Positions 16,789 through 38,131 of a stretch of DNA of 64,000 nt are shown here, piece by piece. Made by a program: the position numbers and the translations under genes. The stretch comes from Gammaproteobacteria bacterium (GTDB lineage Bacteria; Pseudomonadota; Gammaproteobacteria; Arenicellales; JAJDZL01), in contig JAJDXD010000096.1 in assembly GCA_022823405.1 (NCBI GenBank), positions 1-64,000 of the forward strand, given 5' to 3'. Numbering within the stretch: position 1 is the stretch's first letter; each line of letters starts with the position of its first letter. The notes beneath the pieces are model-generated. The model made no database searches. It was not told the DNA's origin and saw only the letters and a list, made by a program, of their open reading frames with translations.

Positions 16789-16792
16789 GTTA

Positions 16793-17653
16793 TTACTGCC
16801 CTTTGAAAATACCCGCTGGGCGTAAAACCAAAATGATGATGAATGCGATATGTCCCGCTAGCATCTGCCATGCGGGATTTAGGTAACCGCCGAAAGCTTG
16901 AGCGACGCCTAGTGTCAGTCCACCTATCAGTGTTCCCCATATTGACCCTAACCCCCCAATCACTACAACTTCAAACGCGATCAATAGTCTCGAAGGTCCA
17001 GACAGCGGAGTGAAACTAGTCCATGCTGCGAACAATACAGCAGATATCCCACAAACAACCATCGCAATCGCCATTGCAACCGAAAAAGTGTGTCTTGTAT
17101 TTACCCCCATTACCTGAGCCACTTCCGGATCATCTGCCGTTGCCCTAAGTACCCGGCCGATGCGAGTCTTGTACGATATGAACTGCAGCCCCGCAATGAT
17201 TGCGATAGCGCATACAAAAACCAATATCGAATACCACCCAATCGAGATGTTACCGATTTGCATGCTGGCTATCTCAATGTTTCCGAAGTCGAGTTTGCGG
17301 TCATCAGCAGTGAAAATTTGCAGCAACCCATTTTGCAAAATTATTGCGATACCGAAGGTGACGAGCAGTGGAGGCAATACGTTCGTACCAACAGTCCTGT
17401 TTAAAATTGCTCGTTGAATGCTGTAACCAAGAAGAGCCATAAAAGGCAAGACAAAAACAACACTGAGTGCCGCGTGTATGCCGAGTATCGAAGTCGCAGT
17501 AAACGCGAGAAAAGATCCTGTAACAATCAAATCACCGTGGGCAAGATTGACTACGCGCATCACACCAAACACCAATGAGAGTCCCGCTGCGAACAGAGCA
17601 TAGAGACCACCGATAAGGATTCCCTGAATGATTGTGTTTACGAGTTCACTCAT
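16793..17653 (-). CDS. Branched-chain amino acid-type ABC transporter permease (LivH)
   Basis: A 286-residue permease with about eight membrane segments. Motifs include LYALFAAGLSLVFGVMRVVNLAHGD at the N-terminus (typical of LivH) and the coupling loop GRVLRATADDPEVAQVMGVN. It pairs with LivM to form the channel of the Liv-type importer. It starts 2 bases after the LivF stop. Confidence 0.93.
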   Translation of the reverse strand: MSELVNTIIQGILIGGLYALFAAGLSLVFGVMRVVNLAHGDLIVTGSFLAFTATSILGIHAALSVVFVLPFMALLGYSIQRAILNRTVGTNVLPPLLVTFGIAIILQNGLLQIFTADDRKLDFGNIEIASMQIGNISIGWYSILVFVCAIAIIAGLQFISYKTRIGRVLRATADDPEVAQVMGVNTRHTFSVAMAIAMVVCGISAVLFAAWTSFTPLSGPSRLLIAFEVVVIGGLGSIWGTLIGGLTLGVAQAFGGYLNPAWQMLAGHIAFIIILVLRPAGIFKGQ

Positions 17654-17655
17654 GG

Positions 17656-18354
17656 TTAAACTCCAAAAAAGGCATTTGCGACATCGTCGAATGCAAGTTC
17701 GTTGCTTTCACCTTCCAAATTTATTTTGCCTTCGAGAATGCAATAGACATAGTCAGATAAATCCAACGCGCGACGAACATCTTGCTCTACGACAATCATG
17801 CTTACGCCTTTATCACGAAGTACAGGTAGCGTGCGACAGATATCACCCACAATTGTTGGTGCAAGACCAAGGCTAAGCTCATCGAATAACAGTACCTTTG
17901 GATTGGCCATCAGTGCCCGACCAATTGCTACCATTTGCTGCTCACCACCAGAAAGGTCTGAACCACGACGCTTACGCAAGCCTTGCAATACTGGAAAGAG
18001 GTCGAACACGGTGTCTGTTGACCAGTCACCTGACCGATTGGACTCTTGACCCATCAGCAAGTTTTCTTCTACTGAGAGACTGTGAAAAAGTCGTCTCCCC
18101 TCGGGGACGGAAGCTATTCCGAGTGCAACAACTTTTTCTGCGGCGAAACCCCCTATGGATTCGTCATCAAATGTTACACACTCGCGTTCTACTGGGACCC
18201 ATCCGGCAAGGCTCCGAAGTAACGTGGTTTTCCCAGCGCCGTTCGGCCCGATTATCGCTACAATTTGACCAGCGTCAAGAGAGATGGAAACACCATAAAG
18301 CGCCTGGAAGTCGAGATAGTAAGCATCGAGGTTATGCGTTTGCAGCAAAGTCAC
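17656..18354 (-). CDS. Liv-type ABC transporter ATPase (LivF)
   Basis: A 232-residue ATPase. Walker A is GPNGAGKTT, the signature is LSGGEQQMVAIGRALMANP and Walker B is VLLFDELSLGLAP. The DELSLGLAP ending is characteristic of LivF. It works with LivG under the two permeases. Its start overlaps the LivG stop by four bases. Confidence 0.95.
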   Translation of the reverse strand: MTLLQTHNLDAYYLDFQALYGVSISLDAGQIVAIIGPNGAGKTTLLRSLAGWVPVERECVTFDDESIGGFAAEKVVALGIASVPEGRRLFHSLSVEENLLMGQESNRSGDWSTDTVFDLFPVLQGLRKRRGSDLSGGEQQMVAIGRALMANPKVLLFDELSLGLAPTIVGDICRTLPVLRDKGVSMIVVEQDVRRALDLSDYVYCILEGKINLEGESNELAFDDVANAFFGV

Positions 18355-19079
18355 GCAGGCGTCCCCATATAGATCTCTCTCACTGTTGGCAGAGCAATTA
18401 CTTCATTCGGTTCCCCTTCTGCAGTCAATTTCCCCTGGTCCATTACAACCAGACGATTGACTACTGCGAGTAGAGCATGGACGATATGTTCTATCCAGAC
18501 AATTGCGACTCCTGTTTTGGCAACTTCACGAATTGTCTGAATTAGACTCTCACATTCCATATCCGTTAGGCCACCCGCTACTTCGTCGAGCAGTAGAATG
18601 CGAGGTTTCGTAGCTAGGGCTCTCGCCATTTCCAAGCGTTTGCGATCCAGAAGACGTAGCGTACTTGCCGGTGATTTTGCATGTGCGAGCAACGCTGTAT
18701 TTTCCAGCACATCAAAACACTGATCATAAGCGGAGCGCTCTGGCAGGTTGCCGCCAAGTGTTGCACCTACGAGAACGTTTTCGAATACGCTCATACCCAA
18801 AAATGGTCTGGGAACCTGGAAGGCACGTGCAATACCTAAAGCGGCTCGCTGTTGCGCTGGAACTCTGGTTACATCCCTTCCTTCGAGAAAAATAGCACCT
18901 TCGGCGGGTAACTTGGTACCCATCGACAAGTCAAGCAATGTGGACTTACCGGCTCCATTGGGGCCAATGAGGCCAATTACGTCCGTTTGGTCAACTCGAA
19001 GCGAAACGTTGTTGGTAACAGTTAATGCACCATAACGGAATGTAATTCCCTTCAGTTCAAAAAGTAGTCTAGACGTCAC
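18351..19079 (-). CDS. Liv-type ABC transporter ATPase (LivG)
   Basis: A 242-residue ATPase. Walker A is GPNGAGKST. The signature helix reads LRLLDRKRLEMARALAT, where the usual LSGG is replaced by LLDRKR. Walker B is ILLLDEVAGGLTD. The degenerate signature is unusual; LivG proteins often have LSYGQQR there. The LivF partner has an intact signature. The GTG start overlaps the end of the binding-protein gene by 11 bases. Confidence 0.9.
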   Translation of the reverse strand: MTSRLLFELKGITFRYGALTVTNNVSLRVDQTDVIGLIGPNGAGKSTLLDLSMGTKLPAEGAIFLEGRDVTRVPAQQRAALGIARAFQVPRPFLGMSVFENVLVGATLGGNLPERSAYDQCFDVLENTALLAHAKSPASTLRLLDRKRLEMARALATKPRILLLDEVAGGLTDMECESLIQTIREVAKTGVAIVWIEHIVHALLAVVNRLVVMDQGKLTAEGEPNEVIALPTVREIYMGTPA

Positions 19080-20367
19080 GCAAATTACGTAGCTCAGCCG
19101 TTATCGGCACCTCAGGGAGAAAATCATTGGATATGATGTCAACCTCAATGCCAAATTCACCACCAAGGCGCCACTGCCCGCCCACAAGCGGTGTGATAGA
19201 CACGTTGCGACCAAATGGGCCGGTCGAGAAGTTGACCGGTCCAAGGGTCGTCTCAAGATTGGTTGCCGCCAAAGCTTCGTTAACTGATTCTCGGTCTTCC
19301 GGATCGCTCGCAGTAACCAGTGCGTTTATACCAACTTCAAAAATTGCATGAGTCCATCCCAAAGGTGGAGTCCAGGGTTTTCCTGAAGCTTTAGTCCAAG
19401 CCGCTGCTAGCTCGGCTGAACTTTGTCCGGTCAGGGATGAAGAAAATGGAAAGTTTGGTGCCCAAACAACTTCCATAGTAAGCCCGTCAGCGAGGTCGCC
19501 CAATGTCGCTACCGCTGCTGGAAATACCAAAGCTTTTCCTATAGTGGCTGCCTTTGGCCTGAGCCCCTGTTGGCGAGCTTGACGCCAGAAGGTATTCCAG
19601 TCCGGCGGATTAAGCACACCTGTCAGCAACTCGGTGTCTTCTGTTTTAAAGGCGCTTATATGTGCGGAAAAATTGTCGGTTAGGTTGGTAAATGTACCAG
19701 GATTTATTAATTTGTAACCCATCCCCGGTAACAGTCCTGGAGCACCCACCTCTGGATGTGACCAGGCTGCACCATCCGCATCATTCGGGAAAAGGCCACC
19801 GACGACTTTATTAGTATCGAGTCGATTCCAGGTCGAAGTGTAGGCGTTGAGTGCGTCGTTAAGTCCAAAGAAAAAGTGATAGGTGTAGTCGAAACCACTA
19901 TCAGGAGTCCCGCCACGGCCGAAATACCAGGCTTCCCAAGGGGCCGCGGTCGACGCACAGGGAACTTCAGCCAGCTCACATTGATCAGCGACAGGGTTAG
20001 TAGTATCCGGTGTCGCAGTAACTAGCATAAGGTTGACTTCGTCTCGCTCAATAAGTTCAGCGGCAACGGTCGCTGCACGACTCGATGAGGATTGACTATC
20101 TTTTACGATTATTTCGATTTGGCGTTTTTTTCCGTTGATTTCAATTCCATTGGCTAGTGACTGTCTTACACCGTCCAGAATGAAATTGTCGGTTTCTCCA
20201 AAAACTGCCAACGGACCGGTTTGCGGTGAGACGTATCCAATTTTGAGTGGGTGTTTACTGGCGAATAGTGGCATTGGCAGAGCGGTAGCCGCAAGTAAAG
20301 ATGTAGTTCGACCAATAAATGTTCGTCGAGACATCGTTTTAGAATCATGGTGTTTATGTGTAGACAC
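19069..20367 (-). CDS. Liv-type periplasmic substrate-binding protein, Tat-exported
   Basis: A 432-residue protein with a twin-arginine signal (SRRTFIGRTTSLLAATALPM), so it is probably exported folded. The mature part is a type 1 periplasmic binding fold (LKIGYVSPQTGPLAVFGETD, EVPCASTAAPWEAW). The ligand cannot be read off. GTG 20367 is preferred because AGAGG lies 8 bases before it; an ATG 33 bases upstream has no such site. It is the first transporter gene and follows the ALDH gene by 96 bases, so it may be co-transcribed with rraA and ALDH from the operator-controlled promoter at 22810. Confidence 0.9.
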   Translation of the reverse strand: MSTHKHHDSKTMSRRTFIGRTTSLLAATALPMPLFASKHPLKIGYVSPQTGPLAVFGETDNFILDGVRQSLANGIEINGKKRQIEIIVKDSQSSSSRAATVAAELIERDEVNLMLVTATPDTTNPVADQCELAEVPCASTAAPWEAWYFGRGGTPDSGFDYTYHFFFGLNDALNAYTSTWNRLDTNKVVGGLFPNDADGAAWSHPEVGAPGLLPGMGYKLINPGTFTNLTDNFSAHISAFKTEDTELLTGVLNPPDWNTFWRQARQQGLRPKAATIGKALVFPAAVATLGDLADGLTMEVVWAPNFPFSSSLTGQSSAELAAAWTKASGKPWTPPLGWTHAIFEVGINALVTASDPEDRESVNEALAATNLETTLGPVNFSTGPFGRNVSITPLVGGQWRLGGEFGIEVDIISNDFLPEVPITAELRNLRDV

Positions 20368-20463
20368 AGTTATTTCCTCTCTTAGGTTAGTTTCGTTCAA
20401 TCACCTGAATTGGCTAGGCAAAGTGGTGCAGGCATCTCGTCAAATTAAGTATTATCATTACAA

Positions 20464-22005
20464 TCAGCTGTCATCTAGAGTGATCAGATTGTCCCAAGGT
20501 GATTCGTTACTCCAGTTAATGCAAACACTCTGTCTTCGCATGTAACCCTTCCAGGCATCCGAACCTGCGGTTCGGCCGCCGCCGGTTTCCTTTTCCCCAC
20601 CAAATGCGGCACCGACATCAGCGCCAGTCGTGCCCATATTAACTTTGGCGATTCCACAGTCAGTGCCTGACGCAGACAAAAACTTTTCGATATTGTTCAA
20701 ATTCTGACTTTGAATTCCCGATGCCAGCCCTTGGGCGACACCGTTGTGAATGTCGATTGCCTCGTCCAAGTCTTCATAGTCAATTACGAAGACCAGTGGT
20801 GCAAATGTTTCTCGCTGGATACACGGCCAATCAGCCTGACAATCAGAAATGATGGTTGCTTCAACATAGTAGCCAGGACGATCTATTCGTTTCCCACCGT
20901 ACTCAATCTTTCCTCCCTTTTCGACAGCTTCGGAAACGGCAGTCTCAAAATGTCCTACCGCAGCAGGGTCGATAAGAGGTCCAACCATCGCAGTTTCTTC
21001 CCGTGGATCACCGATGCTGATTTGCTCGAAAGAGCTGACCAAGTTTGCGATTAGTTCATCTCTAACGCTTTTGTGCGCGATGATCCGTCGAGTGCTGGTG
21101 CAACGCTGACCTGTCGTACCTACTACACCGAATGTAATTGAACGTGCGGCAAGCTTCAGGTCTGCGGTTTCATCTACGATGCAGCCATTGTTTCCAGAAC
21201 ACTCCAATAGACATCGTCGCCCAAGAGTTTTGGCAACTGTACTGGCAACATGCTGTCCCACTGCTGTAGACCCAGTGAATGAAATTAGAGCAACTCGTTC
21301 GTCTTTGACCATTTCCTCGGCAACTTCATTGTCTTCTGGTATGAAGAGCGAGAAAACTCCGTTGTGTCCGGTTTCCTCCATGGCGCGATTAGTCAGATGC
21401 TGTAAAGCTATAGCAGTCAAGGGCACTTTGGGACTGGGTTTCCAAATTACGGTGTTGCCACCAATTGCTGACAAAAATCCATTTTGTGCCCACACAGCGG
21501 CTGGAAAGTTGTACGCGGTAATCAAGCCAGCAACACCGAGCGGTAACCATTGTTCGTACATTCGGTGTTTCTCGCGTTGTGACTGTTGGGTATGGCCGTA
21601 TAACATACGTGACTGGCCAGTTGCCAGACGGCCCATGTCAATTGCTTCCTTGACCTCGCCCTTGCCTTCCATTACTGATTTTCCAGTATCAATCGCTACA
21701 ATCTTGCCGAGTGCATCGTGGTTCTCGGCCATAAGATCAGCTATTCGTGAAATCAGTTCGCCGCGGGCCGGTGCCGGCACCATGCGCCAACGTTTTTGGG
21801 CTTCCACGGCACAATTGATGATGCGGTCGTAATCATTACGTGTTGCAGATGAAATTCCGACCGTTTTCTCACCGTTGGCAGGAAACACATGAGAAAAAAC
21901 TCCATTTTCGTCAACTGGGAACCATCCATCTGCACTGCAAAATGCTCCAGAATTCACAGTTTCTATGCCAAGCTGATCGAAGACCTCACTGATTTCAAAT
22001 TTCAT
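20464..22005 (-). CDS. Aldehyde dehydrogenase, ALDH7-like
   Basis: A 513-residue NAD(P)-dependent dehydrogenase. The catalytic cysteine lies in GTTGQRCTSTRR (Cys302) and the general-base glutamate in LLECSGNNG (Glu268). The GQRCTSTRR run and the length recall ALDH7 (antiquitin, alpha-aminoadipic semialdehyde dehydrogenase). The usual ELGG around the glutamate is replaced by ECSG. It would oxidise a semialdehyde to an acid. ATG 22005 with AGGAA before it is preferred over the longer frame from 22080. It follows rraA by 44 bases, which suggests it oxidises an aldehyde made by that aldolase. Confidence 0.9.
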   Translation of the reverse strand: MKFEISEVFDQLGIETVNSGAFCSADGWFPVDENGVFSHVFPANGEKTVGISSATRNDYDRIINCAVEAQKRWRMVPAPARGELISRIADLMAENHDALGKIVAIDTGKSVMEGKGEVKEAIDMGRLATGQSRMLYGHTQQSQREKHRMYEQWLPLGVAGLITAYNFPAAVWAQNGFLSAIGGNTVIWKPSPKVPLTAIALQHLTNRAMEETGHNGVFSLFIPEDNEVAEEMVKDERVALISFTGSTAVGQHVASTVAKTLGRRCLLECSGNNGCIVDETADLKLAARSITFGVVGTTGQRCTSTRRIIAHKSVRDELIANLVSSFEQISIGDPREETAMVGPLIDPAAVGHFETAVSEAVEKGGKIEYGGKRIDRPGYYVEATIISDCQADWPCIQRETFAPLVFVIDYEDLDEAIDIHNGVAQGLASGIQSQNLNNIEKFLSASGTDCGIAKVNMGTTGADVGAAFGGEKETGGGRTAGSDAWKGYMRRQSVCINWSNESPWDNLITLDDS

Positions 22006-22049
22006 AAGATTGTTCCTGTCGTATTCACGAAAGTAGTCATATTGAATAA

Positions 22050-22784
22050 CTAGTTCTTGGGCCTGCCACCAGCAACCCATTTCTGAAACTCGTCTCGGCT
22101 ATTTTCAGTGGAGGGGAACAGGCCAAAAATAGAACGACCCTGAGAGATTTGAACTTCAACAAACTCTTCATAGTCGGTAGTCGCATAGGCCGAATCTGCA
22201 ACATCGTCAACCAAATGGGCAGGAATGACTACGACACCCTCCCTGTCTCCGACCACAGTATCATTCGGATACACAGCGACACCCGCGCAGCCTATTGGAA
22301 CTTCCAAGTCTACTGCATGCAGCGCGATTACTGTTGAAGGGGGGGCTGATTGCCTCTGATACCCGGGAAGTCCAGCTGCCACGATGGCTGGAGTATCACG
22401 ACATCCGCCATCCGTGACAAACCCGGCTATCCCTCTTTTTTTGAGGCGAGTTGCCATAATGTCGCCGATCGATGATGCTGCTACGCAATTTCCGGTATCC
22501 ATTACCAGTACCGATCCCTCTGGAATTTCCTCGATCGCACGTCGATGGACATTACTGTCAAGCTCATAAATTTCCAAGTTGTCCAAGTCTTCACGTGCTG
22601 GAATAAATCGCAGTGTGTAGGCTTTTCCCAGCATTTGAGGTTGTTGAGGGTCTAAAGGGTTGAGGCCCATCAGATACCTATTTCTAAATCCCAGGGCCAG
22701 TAACGCATTGGCGATTGTTGATGTGCTGCATGCGAGCAATTTGTCATTGCTGGACAATTGGTCAGCAGTACTAGAATTCTGCAA
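22050..22784 (-). CDS. RraA-like aldolase/decarboxylase (HMG aldolase family)
   Basis: A 244-residue protein of the RraA-like fold. The conserved metal and substrate-binding pattern is present: GD at 107-108 (SSIGDIMATR) and RD at 129-130 (TDGGCRDTPAI). Catabolic members are 4-hydroxy-4-methyl-2-oxoglutarate or 4-carboxy-4-hydroxy-2-oxoadipate aldolases, which split the last intermediate of ring-cleavage pathways and release pyruvate. The family also holds proteins of other roles, including the RNase E inhibitor RraA. Here, beside an aldehyde dehydrogenase and a ring-cleaving dioxygenase, an aldolase is likelier. TTG 22784 follows a GAGG site. A perfect palindrome lies 26 bases upstream. Confidence 0.85.
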   Translation of the reverse strand: MQNSSTADQLSSNDKLLACSTSTIANALLALGFRNRYLMGLNPLDPQQPQMLGKAYTLRFIPAREDLDNLEIYELDSNVHRRAIEEIPEGSVLVMDTGNCVAASSIGDIMATRLKKRGIAGFVTDGGCRDTPAIVAAGLPGYQRQSAPPSTVIALHAVDLEVPIGCAGVAVYPNDTVVGDREGVVVIPAHLVDDVADSAYATTDYEEFVEVQISQGRSIFGLFPSTENSRDEFQKWVAGGRPKN

Positions 22785-22809: not shown

Positions 22810-22837
22810 GTTTAACATTTTATATGAAATGTTAAAC
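22810..22837. promoter_or_regulatory. GntR-type operator 1, before rraA
   Basis: Perfect 11-base arms, GTTTAACATTT at 22810-22820 and its complement at 22827-22837, surround the 6-base centre TATATG. The core matches the palindromes at 23253, 24386 and 26608. It overlaps a possible -10 (TATAAA on the minus strand), so a bound regulator would block the rraA-ALDH-Liv operon. This is the most extensive palindrome in the window. Confidence 0.75.
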
Positions 22838-23252
22838 GATTCTGCTCAAATCTAAGTGTTGCAGATGACGGACTTCATAGCAAAGCCACCACTGAATCCA
22901 ATTAGAACTTACCCAGGTTTGCAGGATCAACTTTTGCATTGGCAGAGATGGCGAGTGTCATATTCTCGATTTGTCCAAAAGTGGGTTCAAAGGCCGATTC
23001 GTGAGTTTTCGAATTAGTAAACCATCTTCACGTTAATCAAACTCATTTGTTCGTTGATACGTGTTGGGTGGAATCGCCGACACCATGGGTCTGGATTGAA
23101 GTCATGGCAAAATCATTGGACACTTTCAGAAACCATCTCCAAATAGCTGTAAATGGACTTTGTGGTTCACATCATTGCCTCTGTATGGAATACCAACGCC
23201 AAGCGAGATTAAGAAGTTCTTATAAAATATTAGCTGATAAACTCACTAAGTC
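22838..23252. other. Intergenic region between rraA operator and gntR operator
   Basis: This stretch holds short open frames only; the longest, on the plus strand from 23047, has no ribosome site and no protein-like character. Apart from the flanking operators and an AT-rich stretch near 23221 I see nothing in it. Confidence 0.5.
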
Positions 23253-23266
23253 ATTTCATGTGAAAT
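23253..23266. promoter_or_regulatory. GntR-type operator 2, before gntR
   Basis: The palindrome ATTTCATGTGAAAT lies 53 bases before the gntR start and is identical to the site at 26608. It implies autoregulation. Confidence 0.72.
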
Positions 23267-23319
23267 AATCATTTAGAATTTCAAATGAGGGACGATTCTA
23301 CAAATCGAAATGGAGCGCA

Positions 23320-23970
23320 ATGAACGATAACGTTAAAGCAAAGGTGTCAAAGCAATCTCAAAGTGATAAGGCGTATGAAATACTCAAGTGGAAAATACTG
23401 AACTCCGAACTCGCGCTAGGTCAGTTATACACAGAGATGGAACTTTGCGAAGTCAGTGGCCTGGGAAGATCGCCGGTACGAAACGCGCTGTTTCGATTGA
23501 ACCACGACCGTCTAATAAAGGTTGTTCCGCGTAAGGGCATGTTTATTCGAGGATGGTCTACAGACGAACTGAAGTCGGTTATGGAGTCACGCCTAATTCT
23601 TGAGTCCGCCACTGCAGGAATGGCAGCTAAAAATGCTACAAGCGAGCAAATCAAATATCTAGATCAATTGATGAATGACGCCGACAAATTTTTAGAAAAA
23701 AAAGATCGGAAAAGCTTGATGCGGGTTGATCACGATTTTCATATTGGGCTAGCAGATGCATCTGGCAATCCAGTACTTGCAGAACTGATTGGATCACTAA
23801 AGCAGCGTTCCAATCCATTGTGGTTCTTGCGGATTACAGGACGCGATAAACTCGAAGTGGTACAAACTGAACATAGGGCGATCCTTGAGGCTGTCAAAAA
23901 AGCTGATCCCGAAGCTGCTGTCAAAGCACTGCGCGATCACATAAAACAGTTGTCAGAAGTTATAGGGTAA
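23320..23970 (+). CDS. GntR-family transcriptional regulator (FCD/FadR subfamily)
   Basis: A 216-residue regulator. The N-terminal winged helix runs to about residue 75 (DKAYEILKWKILNSELALGQ, then GLGRSPVRNALFRLNHDRLI and PRKGMFIRGW). The C-terminal all-helical FCD domain includes ESRLILESATAGMA, DHDFHIGLADASGNPVL and TEHRAILEAVKKAD, with the Asp/His residues that bind metal or an organic acid. FCD regulators usually control catabolic operons and are released by a pathway intermediate. It sits at the centre of the island and shares its promoter palindrome with the neighbouring units, so it is the likely local regulator. Confidence 0.93.
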   Translation: MNDNVKAKVSKQSQSDKAYEILKWKILNSELALGQLYTEMELCEVSGLGRSPVRNALFRLNHDRLIKVVPRKGMFIRGWSTDELKSVMESRLILESATAGMAAKNATSEQIKYLDQLMNDADKFLEKKDRKSLMRVDHDFHIGLADASGNPVLAELIGSLKQRSNPLWFLRITGRDKLEVVQTEHRAILEAVKKADPEAAVKALRDHIKQLSEVIG

Positions 23971-23996
23971 TTCTCATGTTCTATCCGATGAATGTG

Positions 23997-24014
23997 TTGA
24001 AACAATAGTTTCAA
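23997..24014 (+). terminator. Possible weak terminator after gntR
   Basis: A 7-base AT-rich stem (TTGAAAC, loop AATA, GTTTCAA) 27 bases after the gntR stop, followed by a T-rich but interrupted stretch (TTGTTGTTAGTT). Confidence 0.35.
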
Positions 24015-24120
24015 TTGTTGTTAGTTCTTCGAATCTGAATTTTCCTGTTATGAGGCGGCTGCATGAGCCAGTGGCTGGGCACGAGCGACAGGTACACTAA
24101 TTCTCCGATGAGCCTACCTT

Positions 24121-24376
24121 CTATCTTCTGCGACGGAAGAATTCACGTTTGATTGTCAGCAGATTGATTCCGAATCTTTCATCGGGCTGTAGTCGGTGGA
24201 TACGATAGTAGACCTTCCAGGTGATGTCGAAACTAGATCCGAAAACTAGGCAAACATCATGTGGGTTTCAACCCCTTTCATGATTCCGTCCGTCGGTGTA
24301 CCAGTCTTCAAATGTACCCGTTCGCCTGATTGACTGCTCGGCGAGAAATACTGTAAAGATATCTGTTGTATCAATA
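24121..24376 (-). pseudogene. Remnant of an unidentified gene (C-terminal part, in-frame stop)
   Basis: On the minus strand a frame ending at TAG 24121-24123 reads like conserved protein: EQSIRRTGTFEDWYTDG, then an in-frame TGA at 24268-24270, then SSFDITWKVYYRIHRLQPDE and a basic tail. The front is lost: the frame runs into the palindrome at 24386 and the opposite-strand cupin gene with no start codon or ribosome site. I cannot name the family. A decayed gene caught between gntR and the cupin gene is the best explanation; chance openness is possible. Confidence 0.35.
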
Positions 24377-24385
24377 TTAACTAAA

Positions 24386-24399
24386 ATTTTATATAAAAT
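24386..24399. promoter_or_regulatory. GntR-type operator 3, before the cupin-YciI gene
   Basis: The perfect palindrome ATTTTATATAAAAT lies 37 bases before the ATG at 24437. It matches the centre of operator 1 with one change per half. Confidence 0.65.
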
Positions 24400-24436
24400 G
24401 TTTTACGGAGTATTACCAACTACCGGAACTAACAAT

Positions 24437-25117
24437 ATGACTGACGAAACGTTAATTCACACCCAACACCTGAGCACCAATGATTGGCAATCATTCGAGA
24501 AATTTGCGTTAAAGCAATATGTCCTGTGGGAGCATCCGACGACTGGAGCGAGTATTGCCCTATTGGATTTTCCCAAGGGGTCGGGAATTCCCGAAAAACA
24601 CTCGCATGCTTCAAATCAGTTTATGTATTGCCTTGAAGGTAAATACGAATATACGGACTCGAATCTAGTGCTGACACCCGGTAGTTTCTACTCAAACCCC
24701 AAAGACCATCCCCATGGCCCAACGTTAGCACATGAGCGCAGCATTCTCATTGAGGTCTACGATGGACCGCACTACTACGAAATGCCGGATTACCATACCG
24801 ATAGCACAATTGGAAAGGTAACCAGTGACGAGCAATATTACATGGTTATTGCAGTTGCGGCCAATCCGCTCCCCGGAAGTGACAGTGCTGCATATTCCGC
24901 TCACCAGCAGTTCATTAGCGGACTATCAGCTCAAAATCTAAGCCATCTCAGTGGCAGTCTAGGCAGTGAGTCTGGGAGTGAGTCGCTGGGCACGACCTAT
25001 ATCATCAGTGCTGAGAGCGAACAACATGCCCGCGAAATTGCATCTAGTGATCCCTACACATCTGAAGGTCTCTATAAGAGTGTTCAGATTTTCCCGTGGC
25101 ATGAACACCGTGGTTAG
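24437..25117 (+). CDS. Cupin domain fused to a YciI-like domain
   Basis: A 226-residue protein. Residues 20-115 form a small cupin barrel with metal-ligand candidates in EKHSHASNQF (His55, His57) and HPHGPT (His91, His93). Residues 130-226 resemble a YciI domain (YYMVIAVAAN, and SSDPYTSEGLYKSVQIFPWHEH at the end), interrupted by a serine/glycine-rich stretch (SGSLGSESGSESLG). Separate cupins and YciI proteins are common accessory proteins of catabolic clusters, but the fusion is unusual to me. Its reaction is unknown. ATG 24437 is used; the longer frame from 24296 crosses the operator. The Rid gene follows one base later. Confidence 0.78.
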   Translation: MTDETLIHTQHLSTNDWQSFEKFALKQYVLWEHPTTGASIALLDFPKGSGIPEKHSHASNQFMYCLEGKYEYTDSNLVLTPGSFYSNPKDHPHGPTLAHERSILIEVYDGPHYYEMPDYHTDSTIGKVTSDEQYYMVIAVAANPLPGSDSAAYSAHQQFISGLSAQNLSHLSGSLGSESGSESLGTTYIISAESEQHAREIASSDPYTSEGLYKSVQIFPWHEHRG

Positions 25118-25118
25118 T

Positions 25119-25517
25119 ATGAAAAAGCAACGTATCCTAACATCTGATGTAGCAGAACCCCCACCCAAACGATGGTCCAATTGCATGCGCATTGGCGACA
25201 CGGTATACATCGCCGGACTTACAGCTCGAAAACATGATGGTGAAACCCTCGCCGGAGACAATGAATATGAGCAATCACACTACATCTTCTCTAAGTTTGC
25301 TGCTTACATGAAATCAGTCGATGGCTCTATGGACGATATAGTGCAAATGATCATCTATGTGACCAACATGGCCAATAATCATGAAGTCTGGCGTGCGCGA
25401 GAAGAATTTTTTAGTGGTGATTTTCCAACCTGCACACTGGTCGAGGTCAGCAAACTTGCCAAACCAGAGATTCTGGTTGAAATAAGTGCCACGGCGCACC
25501 TTGGATGCTCTGCGTAA
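25119..25517 (+). CDS. Rid (YjgF/YER057c/UK114) family protein
   Basis: A 132-residue Rid protein (RIGDTVYIAGLTAR; SMDDIVQMIIYVTN; ILVEISATAHLG). RidA deaminates reactive enamine/imine intermediates and needs a conserved arginine in its PAR motif. Here that position reads FPTCTLVEV, with cysteine in place of arginine, so it belongs to a subfamily lacking RidA activity; some of these act as hydrolases or ring-opening accessory proteins in degradation pathways. It follows the cupin-YciI gene by one base. ATG 25101 is an alternative start. Confidence 0.85.
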   Translation: MKKQRILTSDVAEPPPKRWSNCMRIGDTVYIAGLTARKHDGETLAGDNEYEQSHYIFSKFAAYMKSVDGSMDDIVQMIIYVTNMANNHEVWRAREEFFSGDFPTCTLVEVSKLAKPEILVEISATAHLGCSA

Positions 25518-25553
25518 ATTCAGAAATCACGTTGCCTCTCTGGAGGCCAACCA

Positions 25554-26486
25554 TTATTCGAAGAATTTATCCGGTGGAATTGGTCCCCATTGAGTCACCC
25601 CTTCCGGGGTTCCAGCTATAACAGATGGGGAGTGATGGCGATCAACGACATCCCCGTCGCTGTAGTGCTCAATCCTTTGCTCAAAAGGATCCATCCAATA
25701 ATCAAATACCTGACTACCGGCCATATGCCGCCCTACTCCAACTTCAATTTCATATCCTTGAGAAATCAAATAATCGTGAGCTGACATAACAGCATCAATG
25801 TCCTGAACCTCAAAAGCGCAGTGATGGATTTTTATGTCGTCAGACTGCGAGATGAAAATACTATGATGATCACAGGTCCCATCTCCAGGGTCGCAACTCA
25901 TGAACACGCCAATTACATTTTGCTGCTCATCCGGAGTGGCCAAATAATCTGCAGCTCGCAACCCGAAATGCGTTCCGAACCATGTTTCTGAATCGGCAGC
26001 ATCACTAACAGTTATCGCCACGTGGCCAAGACGCAAAGCATGCGCAATTCCCTTTGGTGGGCGTTGCGACTCGTTTACGCGTTGTTTGTGGGTTCCGAAA
26101 TTGTGAATCAATGGCTCTCGCACGTCAGTCGGACGATGCCATTGGCGCCCATACACAACATCTATTCGGTGACCATCAGGGTGCATTACTGTGGCTTTTT
26201 TCCCACCATAATGGCTGCCCAGTGATTCCACATTCGTTGCCAATCCATTATCAACCAGTATTTCTAGATCCTTCTCATTTCGGGCTTCCAACGCAAGACC
26301 TAGAAACTTATTGGAACTACCCAAAGTAGCGATATATGCATACGGGTTCCCATTGGCAGTGGAGAAACCGACTTCGCTTTCGGTTTGATAACCTATTCCA
26401 AGCCCAAAGTCATACATAAACTTGATCATTACGTTCAGGTCTGTCACCTGATAATGGACATAAGCCAAATCTCTTACGGTAATCAT
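25554..26486 (-). CDS. Two-domain extradiol-type ring-cleaving dioxygenase (VOC superfamily)
   Basis: A 310-residue protein with two VOC modules, about 1-115 and 140-290. The C-terminal module has the metal-binding pattern of type I extradiol dioxygenases: His in LRLGHVAITV, His in IKIHHCAFEVQD and Glu in QRIEHYSDGD, plus the usual C-terminus TQWGPIPPDKF. Such enzymes open a catechol-like ring next to the two hydroxyls using Fe(II). ATG 26486 is used; TTG 26522 would add 12 residues without support. It is divergent from the FAA hydrolase gene, with an operator between them. Confidence 0.87.
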   Translation of the reverse strand: MITVRDLAYVHYQVTDLNVMIKFMYDFGLGIGYQTESEVGFSTANGNPYAYIATLGSSNKFLGLALEARNEKDLEILVDNGLATNVESLGSHYGGKKATVMHPDGHRIDVVYGRQWHRPTDVREPLIHNFGTHKQRVNESQRPPKGIAHALRLGHVAITVSDAADSETWFGTHFGLRAADYLATPDEQQNVIGVFMSCDPGDGTCDHHSIFISQSDDIKIHHCAFEVQDIDAVMSAHDYLISQGYEIEVGVGRHMAGSQVFDYWMDPFEQRIEHYSDGDVVDRHHSPSVIAGTPEGVTQWGPIPPDKFFE

Positions 26487-26607
26487 TAAATCAGCACCCA
26501 AGAATGATGAAGGTTTACCCAAAACTCGAAAATAGAATTCTCATTTCCAACGGAACAGCATAGATCGAGTTTGGTCGCAACATTTTGCGTTCAGGAATAT
26601 TTTATGT

Positions 26608-26621
26608 ATTTCATGTGAAAT
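26608..26621. promoter_or_regulatory. GntR-type operator 4, between dioxygenase and FAA hydrolase
   Basis: ATTTCATGTGAAAT, identical to operator 2. It lies 47 bases before the FAA hydrolase start and about 120 bases from the dioxygenase start, so it could serve both divergent genes. Confidence 0.72.
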
Positions 26622-26668
26622 GTTATAGTAAACGTTATCCCAAATGAAACTAGATACTGGACGAAAAC

Positions 26669-27517
26669 ATGAAACTACTGAGAGTTGGCGATACTGGAGC
26701 CGAAGTACCTGCTATTTTGGATTCGAAAGGAGTGGCCAGGGACATATCAAAGGTTATTCCCGAAATTTCCGGCGAGTATCTGGGACGCAGCACTCTGGAT
26801 CAGCTTCGGAACCTCGACTTGTCGCAATTTCCTAAAATTTCGGCAAATACTCGCGTAGGACCATGTGTTGGCGCTAGCTCAAAGTTTGTGTGTATCGGTC
26901 TGAACTACGTCGACCACGCCCGAGAAGCGGGCAGACCAATTCCCAAAGAACCCGTAGTTTTTATGAAAGCTACGACGTCTATCAGTGGTCCGTTCGACGA
27001 CATCGAAATGCCAGCAGATTCGAAAAAATCCGACTGGGAAGTTGAGCTAGGTATCGTCATCGGTGAGCACACCAAGCGAATTTCTGAGGACAGCGCCTTT
27101 GATCACATTGCTGGCTATTGTCTGGTGGACGATGTTTCTGAGCGCGCATACCAATCAGAACGAGGGGGCCAATGGGTCAAAGGGAAAAGTTTGGATAGTT
27201 ATGGACCGATCGGTCCATGGCTGGTCACAAAGGAGGAAATACCTGATCCTAACGCGCTGACAATTTGGCATGAGGTAGACGACCATCGTTACCAGGATGG
27301 ATCTACGTCCGATATGATCTTCAGAGTCGGCTACTTGGTTAGCTACCTTAGCCAATTTATGACGTTGTTACCTGGAGACATCATTTCTACAGGAACCCCG
27401 GCAGGAGTTGGTCTTGGTCAAAAACCGGACCCTGTATACCTTAAACCTGGACAGACGCTCAGATTAGGCATCGACGGACTCGGGGAACAACTTCACAAAG
27501 TCGTGAGCGTTCAATAG
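26669..27517 (+). CDS. Fumarylacetoacetate hydrolase (FAH) family protein
   Basis: A 282-residue FAH-family enzyme. The metal ligands are visible in SDWEVELGIV (Glu124, Glu126) and LVDDVSERA (Asp155), with KGKSLDSYGPIGPW and STGTPAGVGLG as further signatures. Family members hydrolyse or decarboxylate ring-cleavage products, hydrate dienoates, or act on 2,4-diketo acids. Next to an extradiol dioxygenase, the product of ring opening is the likely substrate. It is transcribed alone from an operator-bearing promoter. Confidence 0.9.
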   Translation: MKLLRVGDTGAEVPAILDSKGVARDISKVIPEISGEYLGRSTLDQLRNLDLSQFPKISANTRVGPCVGASSKFVCIGLNYVDHAREAGRPIPKEPVVFMKATTSISGPFDDIEMPADSKKSDWEVELGIVIGEHTKRISEDSAFDHIAGYCLVDDVSERAYQSERGGQWVKGKSLDSYGPIGPWLVTKEEIPDPNALTIWHEVDDHRYQDGSTSDMIFRVGYLVSYLSQFMTLLPGDIISTGTPAGVGLGQKPDPVYLKPGQTLRLGIDGLGEQLHKVVSVQ

Positions 27518-27629: not shown

Positions 27630-28070
27630 CTAATTCTCAACAATTCGTTTCAGTTCAGATACAAACTCGTTTCCGATTGAATCGGCAACTTTTTCCATCA
27701 TTCCTCCACCAAATTTTCCTAGACGCCCGACAAGGCTAAAATCCGATTCGTAGGTAACTGAGGTGTTGTTACCATTTCCACTCAAAGCTAGAGTGCTTGT
27801 GGCTTTAAGCCGACTGGACTTCTTTCCTTCGTCTCCTTTACTCTCATATCTGGCGTATTCAGGTGGGCGCTGCTCGACGCAAGCAATGTTGAGATTGAAC
27901 TTTGTTTTTATTGGTCCAAGTTTCACGAGAACGGTTACACGGTACGTGTCGTCTACTTGTTCAGCATTTTCACAGCCGGGTACACATTGCGCAACTTGTT
28001 TGGGATCGGTGACAACTCCCCAAACCCTGTCAATCGGCGCTTCGACCTCGAATGTTTTTTTGATTAACAA
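27630..28070 (-). CDS. CoxG-like SRPBCC domain protein
   Basis: A 146-residue START-like (SRPBCC) protein: TFEVEAPIDRVWGVVTDP at the front, CVPGCENAEQVDD in the middle and GMMEKVADSIGNEFVSELKR at the end. In carbon monoxide dehydrogenase operons CoxG helps attach or mature the molybdenum enzyme; relatives accompany many xanthine-dehydrogenase-type enzymes. It lies 2 bases after the molybdenum subunit gene. TTG 28070 is the start; no ATG is closer. Confidence 0.85.
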   Translation of the reverse strand: MLIKKTFEVEAPIDRVWGVVTDPKQVAQCVPGCENAEQVDDTYRVTVLVKLGPIKTKFNLNIACVEQRPPEYARYESKGDEGKKSSRLKATSTLALSGNGNNTSVTYESDFSLVGRLGKFGGGMMEKVADSIGNEFVSELKRIVEN

Positions 28071-28072
28071 GG

Positions 28073-30403
28073 CTACAGTTTTCCCAATGCCTGGAGTACC
28101 TTTTCAGGTGTAATCGGCAAGTCACGAATACGGGCCCCCGTAGCATTGTAGACAGCATTTGCAATCGCTCCTGGCGGTGCTATCAGACAACACTCCGAAA
28201 GGCTTTTTGCGCCAAAAGGACCGGTCGGTTCATTGGACTCAATAAAAATACATTCAATTTCTGGCGGCATTTCGACAGCAGTGGGCATTTTGTAATCAAG
28301 AAAGTCACTGGACAGGCAGGCACCGGTATCTGGATCAAACTGAACCTGCTCAGTCAGCGTGTAGCCGATGGCTTGCTGTAAACCACCTTCAACTTGACCC
28401 TCTGCTCCGGCCGGATTGATAACTCGACCAATGTCATGGGCATATACCGCGCGAACCACCCGAACTTCTCCAGTGTCGGTATTGACCTCAACCTTTACGA
28501 ACATCGCAGATGCGGGAATTGGGCTGAAAGTGGGTGCCATTGTGGCACTACCAATGATAGTACCGCGATAAGGGGTTGAATCACCCTGGGGTCCTTGCTC
28601 GGTCATGGTTACCAACGGTGAATCAGCACGAGACGCTACGTCGCTTATGCTTATCGATAGATTCTCCACTCCTTTCACGAACACCATACCGTCCCGGGTA
28701 TCCAGATCTTCAGGACTGGCTTCCAGCATGGTGCCTGCGACTTTGAGAAGATTCCTCTTGGCATCGGCAGCGGCAGCCTTTACTGTGTTACCGACCGCAT
28801 TCGTTCCACGACTGGCATGCATTGGAGCATCAAATGGAGCATTGCTGGTATCGGTTGAGGACATTCGCACCTGTTCTACAGGGATGCCCAGTTCGGCAGC
28901 AACAATTTGGCAGAACACAGTATTTTGCCCACACCCGATATCAATAGCCGCTGAGCAAATGTCGGCGGATCCGTCTACATTTAGCTTGATGAATGCTCCC
29001 GAATGTTCGTACAGATCGGGCTGAGCAGAACAGTTCGATGTCCAGGTAACGGCGCAACCGAGGCCAATACCTGTTTTGACTACACCTTCGTCTGAACCAG
29101 CTTTCTTGCGTTGGCTCCAGCCTATACGCTCGGCACCTTGCCGCAGGCAGTCATCAAAACGGTAAGTACTAAAGGTTCCGTTAAAGATTGGGTGGGGCTC
29201 TCCCTCTTTATGTGCATTCTTGATTCGAAACTCAACAGGGTCCAGATTCAGTTCCTCACAAATTTCGTCGATCTGCTGTTCGACAGCAAAGGATGCTTGA
29301 GGGGCGCCATAGCCCCTAAAACCACCACTAATTACGTTGTTGGTATGAACGGATAAGCCTTCCCAACGTCTATTCGCACAACTATAAGTGAAGCAGTAGC
29401 CGAACAGGCCATGGACCATTATTACGGTTGAGGCGTGAGTTGCATGCGCGCCGGCATCCAGTGTGCTACGGGCTTGCCTTACGGTTATTGTCCCGTCAGA
29501 CTTTACACCAGTTTTGAGTTCCATTCGAATTGGGCACTTATTGCTGGTCACAAACTCTTCGGCTCGGGTCAAAACCATCCGGACAGGACGATTGGTGATT
29601 TGACTGAAGATCGCAGAAATTGGCTCAATTGGTGTGATGTCGAGCTTACCACCAAATCCACCTCCTATGTAAGGCGGCTTGACCACTCTGACTTTGCTTT
29701 GCGGTAGTCCCAACACAAACGCGAGCTTTTCGCGAAGGCCGAACAAATGTTGCATGGAGCTCTGAATAGTGACGTTACCGTTAAAGTCCACATCAGCTAT
29801 ACAAACATGAGGTTCCATCGAACAAATGTTGATACGATGGGTTTCGTAGGTTTGCTCGAAAACGTGGTCAGCTTCTGCAAAACCTGCATCGGGGTCTCCA
29901 GTTTCAACCTTCTCATGCTTGGCGATGTTTTTTTCGGTGTAATCGTGAATTGCAGGCGCCCCATCCATCATTGCGTCGTCAACATTGAAGACCGCAGGTA
30001 ATTCTTCATATTCGATGTCAATCAAATCCAGAGCTTGCTCCGCAATTTCTGGTGTAGTCGCTGCTACCGCTGCAACAGGTTGGCCGGCGTAACGTACGGT
30101 TCGACTCATTAGGGTCATGTCCTGAATACAGCCAAGACCCTCAGTCGGCATAAAGTAAATTGGAGAGTACTTGATCTGAGGCACGTCGTCCGGGGTCAGC
30201 ACTGCCTTAACGCCAGGAAGCGATTCTGCGTGGGAAACATCGATGCTGACAATCTTGGCGTGGGGATACGGACTACGTAACATTATTCCATGCAGCATTC
30301 CAGGTAATGATGCATTGATTGGAAAGCCCCGGCCGCCGGTGACCTTGTCTTCGGCATCGTGAAACTTGACGTGGGTGCCTACGGTATCGCTGAATTTCGA
30401 CAT
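28073..30403 (-). CDS. Xanthine dehydrogenase-family molybdopterin subunit
   Basis: A 776-residue large subunit of a molybdenum hydroxylase. The motifs YIGGGFGGK, GGFRGYGAPQ (about 360), AAIDIGCGQNTVFCQI and the C-terminal active-site segment GPFGAKSLSECC (with the catalytic glutamate) are visible, followed by PPGAIANAVYNATG. These enzymes hydroxylate N-heterocycles, purines or aldehydes with oxygen from water. The CO dehydrogenase loop (AYXCSFR) was not seen. Substrate cannot be assigned, but the genes around it point to an aromatic or N-heterocyclic compound. The Fe-S and FAD genes lie immediately upstream. Confidence 0.92.
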   Translation of the reverse strand: MSKFSDTVGTHVKFHDAEDKVTGGRGFPINASLPGMLHGIMLRSPYPHAKIVSIDVSHAESLPGVKAVLTPDDVPQIKYSPIYFMPTEGLGCIQDMTLMSRTVRYAGQPVAAVAATTPEIAEQALDLIDIEYEELPAVFNVDDAMMDGAPAIHDYTEKNIAKHEKVETGDPDAGFAEADHVFEQTYETHRINICSMEPHVCIADVDFNGNVTIQSSMQHLFGLREKLAFVLGLPQSKVRVVKPPYIGGGFGGKLDITPIEPISAIFSQITNRPVRMVLTRAEEFVTSNKCPIRMELKTGVKSDGTITVRQARSTLDAGAHATHASTVIMVHGLFGYCFTYSCANRRWEGLSVHTNNVISGGFRGYGAPQASFAVEQQIDEICEELNLDPVEFRIKNAHKEGEPHPIFNGTFSTYRFDDCLRQGAERIGWSQRKKAGSDEGVVKTGIGLGCAVTWTSNCSAQPDLYEHSGAFIKLNVDGSADICSAAIDIGCGQNTVFCQIVAAELGIPVEQVRMSSTDTSNAPFDAPMHASRGTNAVGNTVKAAAADAKRNLLKVAGTMLEASPEDLDTRDGMVFVKGVENLSISISDVASRADSPLVTMTEQGPQGDSTPYRGTIIGSATMAPTFSPIPASAMFVKVEVNTDTGEVRVVRAVYAHDIGRVINPAGAEGQVEGGLQQAIGYTLTEQVQFDPDTGACLSSDFLDYKMPTAVEMPPEIECIFIESNEPTGPFGAKSLSECCLIAPPGAIANAVYNATGARIRDLPITPEKVLQALGKL

Positions 30404-30406
30404 GTT

Positions 30407-30880
30407 CTACTCCCCGGTCGTCTGGCCTGAAGCTAGTTTCACAGCTTCGATAATTTTGTGATAGCCGGTACAGCGGCATAAATTGCCCGCAAGACCTTGT
30501 CGTATTTCGGCATCATTTGGCTTGCTGTTAATGGAAAGCAGCTGCTTAGTTGCCAATATCATACCGCTCGTGCAGTAACCACACTGAACCGCACCACTGT
30601 CGATGAATGCCTGTTGAATGTGATCCAAATTTCGACCATCAGCTAATCCTTCAACCGTTGTGATTTCGGCATCTGCGACGGTCATTGTGTATGTCATACA
30701 GCTATAGCGAGATTCACCGTTAACTAGCACGGTGCAACAACCGCAGCCACCGGTATCGCAACCTTGTTTCGGCCCTATAAGATGCAACTCGTTCCGAAGC
30801 GTATGTAAGAGAGTATCGAAGGGTTCGATTATCGCGGGTTGAACCTCGCCGTTAACATTAATCTCAATTTGTTGTTTCAT
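30407..30880 (-). CDS. Molybdenum hydroxylase [2Fe-2S] subunit
   Basis: A 157-residue small subunit. The plant-ferredoxin cluster uses Cys41, Cys46, Cys49 (GCDTGGCGCC) and Cys61; the second cluster uses Cys100, Cys103, Cys135 and Cys137 (QCGYCTSGM and LCRCTGYHK). It carries electrons from molybdopterin to FAD. ATG 30880 gives the usual start MKQQIEINVNG; a TTG at 30901 that overlaps the upstream stop is an alternative. Confidence 0.94.
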   Translation of the reverse strand: MKQQIEINVNGEVQPAIIEPFDTLLHTLRNELHLIGPKQGCDTGGCGCCTVLVNGESRYSCMTYTMTVADAEITTVEGLADGRNLDHIQQAFIDSGAVQCGYCTSGMILATKQLLSINSKPNDAEIRQGLAGNLCRCTGYHKIIEAVKLASGQTTGE

Positions 30881-30897
30881 CCTGATAGTTCCCAAAG

Positions 30898-31770
30898 TCA
30901 AGACAATTGATTGGCAACACGTGCTAGACAGCGTCTTACCAAAACGCCGGTAATATGCTTTCGGTATTGAGCCGATGCTCGGTGATCCGAAAAAGGCTCA
31001 ATTTCGCCTTTGGCTGCTGTGGCCGCCCGCTTAATATCCTCCGCATTCAACTCTGAATTCTCAAGAACCGCTTCAGCTTCGCAGCAGCGAAACGGGACTT
31101 CACCGATTCCGCCCCCGACAAAAATTCGAGCACCTGACTGTGAACCACCGCTCAATGAAAGTCTGACACCGACGCTGACAATTGAAAGATCGTTGGCGGT
31201 AGTCTCCATTTTTTCGAATGACGATGCCGACTGTTCTGACGGTTGAGGTACCTTGATCTCTGTAATGATTTCGCCAGGAATCAAATTAGTTTCAAATAGA
31301 GATACGAACAACTCATCAATTGGAAATTCCCTAGTGCCGTCAGGACCAGTTGCACAAACCATCGCGTCCAATGCCAAAAAGGCAATCGGCATATCAAGGT
31401 AAGGACACGACGCTGCCACGCCTCCCCCAATAGTTGCTGCGTTCTTTACCTGTCGAGGCGGGTATGCAATCGCTTCGCGTAATGCTCCCAGCAACGAAAT
31501 ATTCTGAATCTCGGCAGAGGCCTCAAGACTGGCAAATGAAGTGCTCGCACCGAGTCTAATGACATTTTCGTCGAACGTCATATGGTTCAGATTTAGACGC
31601 GACAAATCAATGAGCTGTTCAACATCGGTAACGAGGCCTCTTGCTACCAAACCGTGAATAAACGTGCCACCACCGATAACCATCGCAGAATCCTGACAGG
31701 CCTGCAGTATCGCAACTGCCTCTTCGACGCTATTGGGCTGACTAAACCCCTGTAGTGTTGTAAGTGCCAA
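30898..31770 (-). CDS. Molybdenum hydroxylase FAD-binding subunit
   Basis: A 290-residue medium subunit of the xanthine dehydrogenase family. FAD-binding loops are seen at VIGGGTFIHG (about 32-41) and NAATIGGGVAASCPY (about 109-123). It passes electrons to the final acceptor. It is the first gene of the unit (FAD, Fe-S, Mo, CoxG) on the minus strand. A weaker operator-like palindrome lies about 95 bases before it. Confidence 0.93.
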   Translation of the reverse strand: MALTTLQGFSQPNSVEEAVAILQACQDSAMVIGGGTFIHGLVARGLVTDVEQLIDLSRLNLNHMTFDENVIRLGASTSFASLEASAEIQNISLLGALREAIAYPPRQVKNAATIGGGVAASCPYLDMPIAFLALDAMVCATGPDGTREFPIDELFVSLFETNLIPGEIITEIKVPQPSEQSASSFEKMETTANDLSIVSVGVRLSLSGGSQSGARIFVGGGIGEVPFRCCEAEAVLENSELNAEDIKRAATAAKGEIEPFSDHRASAQYRKHITGVLVRRCLARVANQLS

Positions 31771-31863
31771 TGTTCTCTCCTCGGTAGTTACCTTGACTAT
31801 ACGACCCTGCTTCTGTTAGCGGTCGTCATGCCAGATTAAATGCGCTGATTGTGATATGATAAT

Positions 31864-31877
31864 ATTTCTTGTAATAT
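31864..31877. promoter_or_regulatory. Possible GntR-type operator 5 (weaker)
   Basis: ATTTCTTGTAATAT matches the consensus of operators 2 and 4 at 11 of 14 positions by hand count. It lies in the divergent region between the molybdenum hydroxylase and glutathione transferase genes, a sensible place for a regulon site. Confidence 0.4.
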
Positions 31878-32012
31878 CTTACTAGACATTTAAGCCCGAC
31901 CCATCTAAGCGCGACCCATCAACAAATTCTACGCTAATTTTGATATTTGGTATTGAACGTCGATGGAAGTCGGAATTTCATTTTGACAAATAGATAACGT
32001 GGAGGTAACACA

Positions 32013-32822
32013 GTGTCAGAACTAACTCTTTATGATTTTGCCGAGTCAGTCTGTTGCCAGAAAGTGCGTCTAGTCATAGCTGAAAAGGGTCTCTCGGTGC
32101 GGGAAGTGCCAGTGCCGCTGGATGAGGGTGCTCAGTTTAAGCCCGAATTTCTCAAACTGAATCCAAAGGCTATTGTTCCGGTCGCTACACACAATGATCG
32201 AGTGATAACCGAGTCGACGGTAATCAACGAATATATAGAGGAAGCGTTTGAAGGACCAAATCTACTACCCGAAAATGCCTATCACCGGGCGATGGCCCGT
32301 AACTGGTCGCTTCGAGTGGATTTAGGGTTACATAGCCCCCACACCACTGTGGTTAGTTTTGTCGTGGCTCTGCGTTATGCATTTATGGACAAGCTGGACA
32401 CACCGGAAAAGATAGCAGCGCATTTGCAAAATGTCATGGATCCGGTAAGTCGCGAAATGCAGCGCCAAGGATTTGAGATGGCTTACGAGGCACCGGCTTT
32501 TCGTGACGCTATCTTGGCATTTGATGATTTGCTCGAGCAAATGAATGCGGCACTGACACAGTCCAAGTGGTTGGTTGGTGATCACGTGTCGTTGGCAGAT
32601 TTCAATCTTGCACCTTACATTCATCGACTCGACACCCTAGGTTTGTCAGGTATGTGGTCCCATCGAAGTGATGTAGCTCGCTGGTACGAGGCATTACAGC
32701 AGCGTCAAAGTTGGGACCAGGCGATTCAGAAACCCCATGTGGCAATGTGGCTTGATCTAATGGCAATGGGTGGTAAAGAAGGTGCCCCAATTGTGGCGAG
32801 AATGCTCGAAACGTCATCCTGA
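32013..32822 (+). CDS. Glutathione S-transferase family protein
   Basis: A 269-residue GST. The N-terminal thioredoxin-like half contains [15 protein letters not shown] and the glutathione-binding [15 protein letters not shown]; the C-terminal helical half contains [18 protein letters not shown]. The active-site region has SVCC at the start of the first helix. Some such proteins are beta-etherases or maleylpyruvate isomerase-like enzymes of aromatic breakdown; I cannot separate these. GTG 32013 follows a GGAGG site. Confidence 0.88.
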
Positions 32823-32969
32823 GGCAACAAACATCTTCTATCAACGCAATTTTGTTCAGCAAATGCGAACAGAATCGAAAGTCATTTCAATCCAATTTGA
32901 CTCCACTTGAGAAGAGGATTGAGGTGTTGTATGCGAGTCCCGATTCAATAGCAAAAAGGTGATGCAATT

Positions 32970-33344: not shown

Positions 33345-33485
33345 CGTCTTTCTAAGTTAAGGGTGCTATTTCCGCCTCGCGGTGCATGTGCAGTTGAGGT
33401 GAGGAATTGTGGCTGCCGATTGTACGTTAACTTTTTTACCCTGCTATTGCTCAAAAATGTAATTTGTGTATAATTTCTCAAAAAA

Positions 33486-33499: not shown

Positions 33500-33506
33500 T
33501 CTGCAA

Positions 33507-33833: not shown

Positions 33834-33837
33834 TTAT

Positions 33838-38121: not shown

Positions 38122-38131
38122 GGATGCAATA

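Follow-up and report, generated by a model that had tools for sequence, protein, structure and literature searches.

Regulators of the GntR family with an FCD domain are known to act on repeated or atypical sites. Atu1419, an FCD-type GntR regulator of the VanR group from Agrobacterium fabrum concerned with hydroxycinnamate degradation, binds two 10-bp palindromes through a tetramer that spans both (PMC7797058), and NanR, an FCD-type GntR regulator of Escherichia coli, has a (GGTATA)3 operator with three dimers (PMC8012715). In the FadR subfamily, the usual operator core is GT...AC, and extra half-site boxes lie 7-12 nt from the center in 13 groups (PMC4494728). Here, a stretch of 64,000 nucleotides from Gammaproteobacteria bacterium of the order Arenicellales (contig JAJDXD010000096.1, positions 1 to 64,000; hereafter the window) was analyzed, in which an island of catabolic genes at about 15790-39167 contains the gene of an FCD-type GntR regulator. 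Comparative genomics indicates that the island is very probably the regulon of this GntR, which would be an autoregulated repressor binding 22-bp operators. The candidate operator consists of two 10-bp palindromic units, TAAnATnTTA, with a repeat step of 12 bp; the system is of a known kind, with its own motif and a mechanism that is not new.

Like Atu1419, the GntR of the window belongs to a local catabolic cluster that includes its own gene, has 10-bp palindromes near promoters, and is expected to hold an Asp/His metal site. However, the Atu1419 site (ATGTATACAT) has a GT..AC core, and its sites are 190 bp apart and bridged by the tetramer, whereas the units in the window are 12 bp apart. 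The window shares with NanR, a regulator of sugar and acid catabolic operons, close-set repeated units able to hold several dimers. On the other hand, the GGTATA repeats of NanR are direct, with a spacing of roughly half a turn, and the protein has a 32-residue N-terminal extension for cooperativity, while the units in the window are palindromic and only a short tail precedes the helix-turn-helix; no (GGTATA)3 repeat was found in the window operators and no long N-terminal extension in the GntR. The boxes of the FadR subfamily likewise stand beside a main palindrome, including at ~12 nt, but the two units in the window are of about equal strength. BioR, NanR, and FarR are known exceptions to the GT..AC core.

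A previous sequence-only reading of the window had reported four palindromes with the core ATTT(C/T)AT(A/G)T(G/A)AAAT, a 14-mer that was searched here in its exact form as ATTTYATRTRAAAT. All four are present, with cores starting at 22817, 23253, 24386, and 26608. The first lies in a 28-base element at 22810-22837 (GTTTAACATTT-TATATG-AAATGTTAAAC) with 11-base perfect arms, and the cores at 23253 and 26608, said to be identical, do share all 14 bases (ATTTCATGTGAAAT). Their reported placement was also correct, the site centers being ~40 bp from the start codon of rraA, 60 bp from that of gntR, 44 bp from that of the cupin-YciI gene, and 54 bp from that of the FAA hydrolase gene at the FAA hydrolase/dioxygenase divergence. 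In the whole 3.15-Mb genome, exact ATTTYATRTRAAAT occurs in four places, all inside 22817-26621, and with up to one mismatch there were 19 matches compared with 2 for a reversed control pattern. Among 109 genomes of the order, four exact places were found only in this genome and one congener (G000 and G043), both of them island carriers; no exact place was present in four congeners that lack the GntR and dioxygenase genes, and 17 further genomes with any exact 14-mer had one or two places each. Since the four exact places are confined to the island and to island carriers, their clustering is not due to chance.

The 14-base core stands as a shared palindrome but not as the full element, because it is the junction in the middle of two TAAnATnTTA units. 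A 22-mer matrix was built from the four window sites; its symmetric information content peaks at the unit positions and is low beyond 22 bp. Expectation-maximization (EM) motif discovery on upstream regions reached its limit of sites and gave fuzzy motifs, so it was set aside; a 14-column motif from it (ATnTnAnnTnAnAT) agreed with the core. The other one-mismatch sites in the genome had matrix scores of 4-16, and the best of them (in L030, 15.7) had no recognizable island gene adjoining and was rejected. Weaker copies had also been proposed at 31864 and 33486. As 14-mers they are no better than chance, and the 14-mer with up to three mismatches was dropped as a detector since it cannot tell weak copies from chance; with the 22-mer matrix, however, both are candidate sites. 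Outside the training set, the score of the first (31860/31872, with a counterpart at 18895/18907 in the relative L019 described below) was reached by 18 of 5000 shuffles and that of the second (33469/33481) by 2 of 5000. At both places, as at 11515/11527 and 18895/18907 in L019, two 22-mers overlap at an offset of 12 bp, the arrangement expected of three units in a row, although such third units beside the 22-bp operator are only suggestive.

When 84,980 species genomes were scanned with the GntR, three relatives were found: one of the same genus (L018) with a 99% identical GntR, Gammaproteobacteria metagenome-assembled genome (MAG) SB0673_bin_2 (L019; 64% identical, 63% GC), and a Cocleimonas MAG (L020; 56% identical). 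The gene order in L019 differs from that in the window: aldehyde dehydrogenase (ALDH)-RraA divergent from GntR, FAA hydrolase, dioxygenase, and an operon of a molybdenum (Mo)-hydroxylase comprising FAD, 2Fe-2S, and molybdenum cofactor (MoCo) subunits, CoxG, cupin-YciI, and Rid. Its island proteins are 57-81% identical to those of the window. The exact 14-mer does not occur at L019. Nevertheless, the five best sites that the window-trained matrix found in its 20.6 kb were at 9886 (rraA/gntR), 18907 and 18895 (Mo operon), and 11527 and 11515 (FAA hydrolase), and Markov shuffles reached the maxima of these regions in 3/5000, 3/5000, and 30/5000 cases, respectively. The distances from site to start codon are similar in L019 and the window, i.e., about 50 versus 54 bp for FAA hydrolase and about 92-104 versus 100-112 bp for the Mo operon. 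A lack of palindromes before orthologous genes was to have refuted the previous reading, and at L019 that reading withstands the test. In the whole 3-Mb L019 genome, the 22-mer consensus with up to three mismatches matched two places only, both in the island, with ~1 control match. In L018, the rraA-gntR intergenic region differs from that of the window by 25 substitutions in 533 bp, with none in the 62 bp over two sites and none in 141 bp spanning all four sites. The apparent conservation of the operators comes from one independent locus (L019) and this near-identical relative; further close GntR orthologues were not found among 369 genomes of the class, 246 from the order of L019, and 63 from that of Cocleimonas.

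The regulator has an N-terminal winged helix (Pfam GntR PF00392, 2.2e-10, residues 15-76, above the cut-off) and a C-terminal effector domain (FCD PF07729, 1.9e-30, residues 87-209). It had been described as the only regulator in the island, and Pfam recognized no second one in 15790-39167; in the L019 cluster, too, its homologue was the only regulator recognized. Its homologues are 99%, 62-64%, and 55-56% identical to it. In four homologues, G49, R50, S51, P52, and R54 of the recognition helix are invariant, in agreement with a binding code common to the window and L019. D137, H141, H185, and H207 are also invariant, and the three His residues align with His residues of PDB 3sxy; these four are probable metal residues.

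Based on these results, GntR would bind two 10-bp units at a 12-bp step, and sometimes a third, including those before its own gene, and adjacent dimers would occupy the units near promoters and repress transcription. The trigger for release would be a pathway intermediate, probably a ring-cleavage carboxylic acid that the FCD pocket would bind along with a metal. Release would then lead to joint expression of Liv-type and Rbs/TorT-type ATP-binding cassette (ABC) uptake, Mo-dependent hydroxylation, ring cleavage, deamination, hydrolysis, and aldol cleavage. An autoregulated repressor is preferred because the sites lie near start codons, because one precedes gntR, and because of the FCD pocket.

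Several results weigh against this interpretation. In the AT-rich genome itself, the two-unit pattern alone is hardly enriched (162 matches versus 139 in the control) and was dropped as a genome detector, being too loose in AT-rich genomes, and the excess of a third unit at offset -12 is modest (3.6 of 8 matches versus a background of 2.3 with a maximum of 3.3). The surroundings of O3 and O4 are nearly the same in L018, so unchanged sites there carry little weight. The operators also lack the GT-N0-1-AC core usual in the FadR subfamily (PMC4494728), which makes for a poorer operator fit and leaves the placement of the GntR in its family unaffected. Finally, the motif found upstream of the rraA/gntR, FAA hydrolase, and Mo genes of L019 was not confirmed for two more distant homologues: the region upstream of the Cocleimonas gntR (the 56% homologue) has no significant site (572/2000 shuffles as good), and Gemmobacter (GntR 32% identical) has a weak site before torT only (166/2000 shuffles as good).

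Among the alternatives, GntR might bind the same sites but activate transcription, or activate some operons and repress others. The sign is unreadable from sequence, and the distance of the Mo-operon site, about 100-112 bp upstream of the start codon, is compatible with activation; however, for most sites the start codon is 18-60 bp away, a position from which a bound protein should block transcription, and most FCD regulators characterized for catabolic operons act by repression, so this alternative is rather unlikely. Less likely again, the sites could serve an unlinked regulator, such as another FCD GntR or a global regulator of AT-rich sites, with the island GntR acting elsewhere or on itself only. 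We infer the binding of GntR to the sites from comparative genomics, and the genome holds 9 other, weaker first-look GntR candidates, one of them above threshold. Moreover, in the Cocleimonas genome a perfect 22-mer (TAACATTTCACGTAATATGTTA; L056 7843-7864, G853:C300) precedes a cytochrome b561 gene by 36 bp, away from the gntR of that genome. The next best 22-mer there (L057 4297) adjoins dsrAB-like genes, and none lies upstream of gntR; given these neighbors, and with no island gene near the b561 site, the two 22-mers were not used as support. On the other side, the genome has exact sites in the island only, congeners without the island have none, and this GntR is the only regulator common to both site-bearing clusters. 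A reading in which no one protein binds all the sites, and the palindromes are chance symmetry in AT-rich DNA, promoter -10-like elements, or hairpins, would suit AT-rich, intergenic sites, a 14-mer that at up to three mismatches is unenriched in the window (53 matches versus 42 +/- 9 expected), and one weak promoter-like match overlapping O4 (though such matches are fewer than in shuffles), but this is highly improbable and already disfavored by the cross-species test, given the clustering of exact matches, the independent recovery, in a locus of 63% GC, of sites that precede the same genes, and the constant 12-bp step.

For the autoregulated repressor, the claim that the island is one regulated system is supported, with wider limits than first drawn. 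A candidate operator lies near each of eight putative transcription units, delimited from strand and spacing over 15790-39167 (~23 kb): rraA-ALDH-Liv; gntR; cupin-YciI/Rid; dioxygenase; FAA hydrolase; the Mo operon with CoxG; GST-DoxX; and DUF1330-TorT-CMD-RbsA-RbsC-SnoaL-nitroreductase. Counting the last as part of the island is supported by its position next to these enzyme genes on Gemmobacter fulvus plasmid p1 and, for a portion of the block, in G792. The operator delimits a gene set and so allows its pathway to be studied as a whole, makes operator and regulator testable for a patchily distributed catabolic island, and defines a candidate FCD binding code departing from the usual GT..AC pattern.

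Candidate operators and island genes in the window
Feature	Position	Strand	Location	Remarks
Candidate operator O1 TAACATTTTATATGAAATGTTA	22813..22834		Before rraA-ALDH-Liv operon	Top matrix score in window; counterpart L019 9886; unchanged in near relative
Candidate operator O2 AGTCATTTCATGTGAAATAATC	23249..23270		Before gntR	Exact 14-mer; leave-one-out rank 7 in 64 kb
Weaker candidate O2b AAGAAGTTCTTATAAAATATTA	23211..23232		38 bp upstream of O2	Matrix scores 16.9, 13.0
Candidate operator O3 TAAAATTTTATATAAAATGTTT	24382..24403		Before cupin-YciI/Rid	Exact 14-mer; leave-one-out rank 4
Candidate operator O4 ATGTATTTCATGTGAAATGTTA	26604..26625		Between dioxygenase (-) and FAA hydrolase (+)	Exact 14-mer; counterpart L019 11527
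Candidate O5, overlapping 22-mers 31860 and 31872	31860..31893		Between Mo-hydroxylase operon (-) and GST-DoxX (+)	Three units, 12-bp steps
Candidate O6, overlapping 22-mers 33469 and 33481	33469..33502		Before DUF1330-TorT-type ABC operon	
rraA-like aldolase, ALDH, Liv-type substrate-binding protein, LivGFHM-type ABC transporter operon	15790..22784	-		Pfam
gntR, FCD-type GntR regulator, 216 aa, proposed binder and autoregulator	23320..23970	+		Pfam, homologues
Cupin-YciI fusion (24437-25117) and Rid/YjgF (about 25119-25517)	24437..25517	+		Pfam
Extradiol (VOC) ring-cleavage dioxygenase-like protein	25554..26486	-		Pfam Glyoxalase
FAA-hydrolase family protein	26669..27517	+		Pfam 2.9e-70
Mo-hydroxylase operon: FAD, 2Fe-2S, MoCo subunits, CoxG	27630..31770	-		Pfam
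GST-like and DoxX-like membrane protein	32013..33344	+		Pfam; DoxX/SURF4 match below gathering score
DUF1330, TorT-like binding protein, CMD-like, RbsA-like, RbsC-like, SnoaL, nitroreductase-family operon	33510..39167	+		Pfam; Gemmobacter p1 homologous block

The TorT-like gene at 33838-34923 scores just over one NCBIfam TorT cut-off, and its relatives are annotated as TorT (trimethylamine N-oxide system); its product is probably the binding protein of a transporter, as RbsA/RbsC-type ABC genes adjoin. Cupin and YciI are in a single reading frame at 24437-25117 and in L019. Just left of the island, an Rrf2-family regulator (14536-15015) adjoins sufB and belongs to the Fe-S system. Within the genus, GntR and dioxygenase occur together in two of six genomes, and GntR is absent or distant elsewhere in the order; this patchy distribution suggests horizontal transfer.

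The presence of Mo-hydroxylase, extradiol dioxygenase, ALDH, Rid, FAA hydrolase, and RraA suggests the meta-cleavage of an amino- or N-heteroaromatic compound. The nearest solved structures of the Mo-hydroxylase include 4-hydroxybenzoyl-CoA reductase, CO dehydrogenase, and quinoline 2-oxidoreductase. Among the island enzymes scanned, none reached a curated NCBIfam equivalog cut-off that names a substrate; the dioxygenase-like protein has a weak catechol 2,3-dioxygenase match below the cut-off, and the RraA-like protein an uninformative subfamily match. No matching cluster was found in the homarine and sponge-symbiont literature. That the island combines an uncommon FCD operator code (two or three 12-bp-phased palindromes with at least two dimers) with an undescribed N-heteroaromatic or aminoaromatic pathway can be proposed tentatively.

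Related enzyme sets occur elsewhere. The alphaproteobacterial plasmid p1 of Gemmobacter fulvus (L022 4375-23939) has a homologous island with two Mo-hydroxylases and a TorT/RbsA/RbsC transporter. Like the window, p1 and G792 have Mo-hydroxylase, VOC dioxygenase, Rid, cupin, FAA, RraA, and TorT/RbsA/RbsC genes; unlike it, p1 has a distant GntR and separate cupin and YciI genes, and the operator motif was not confirmed there, while no GntR match was found in the 20 kb of G792 examined. A Streptomyces plasmid (L023 10001-18527) has a shorter set, i.e., VOC dioxygenase, RraA-like protein, cupin, ALDH, RidA, and FAA hydrolase, and an adjoining cytosine-type permease gives a hint of an N-heterocyclic substrate.

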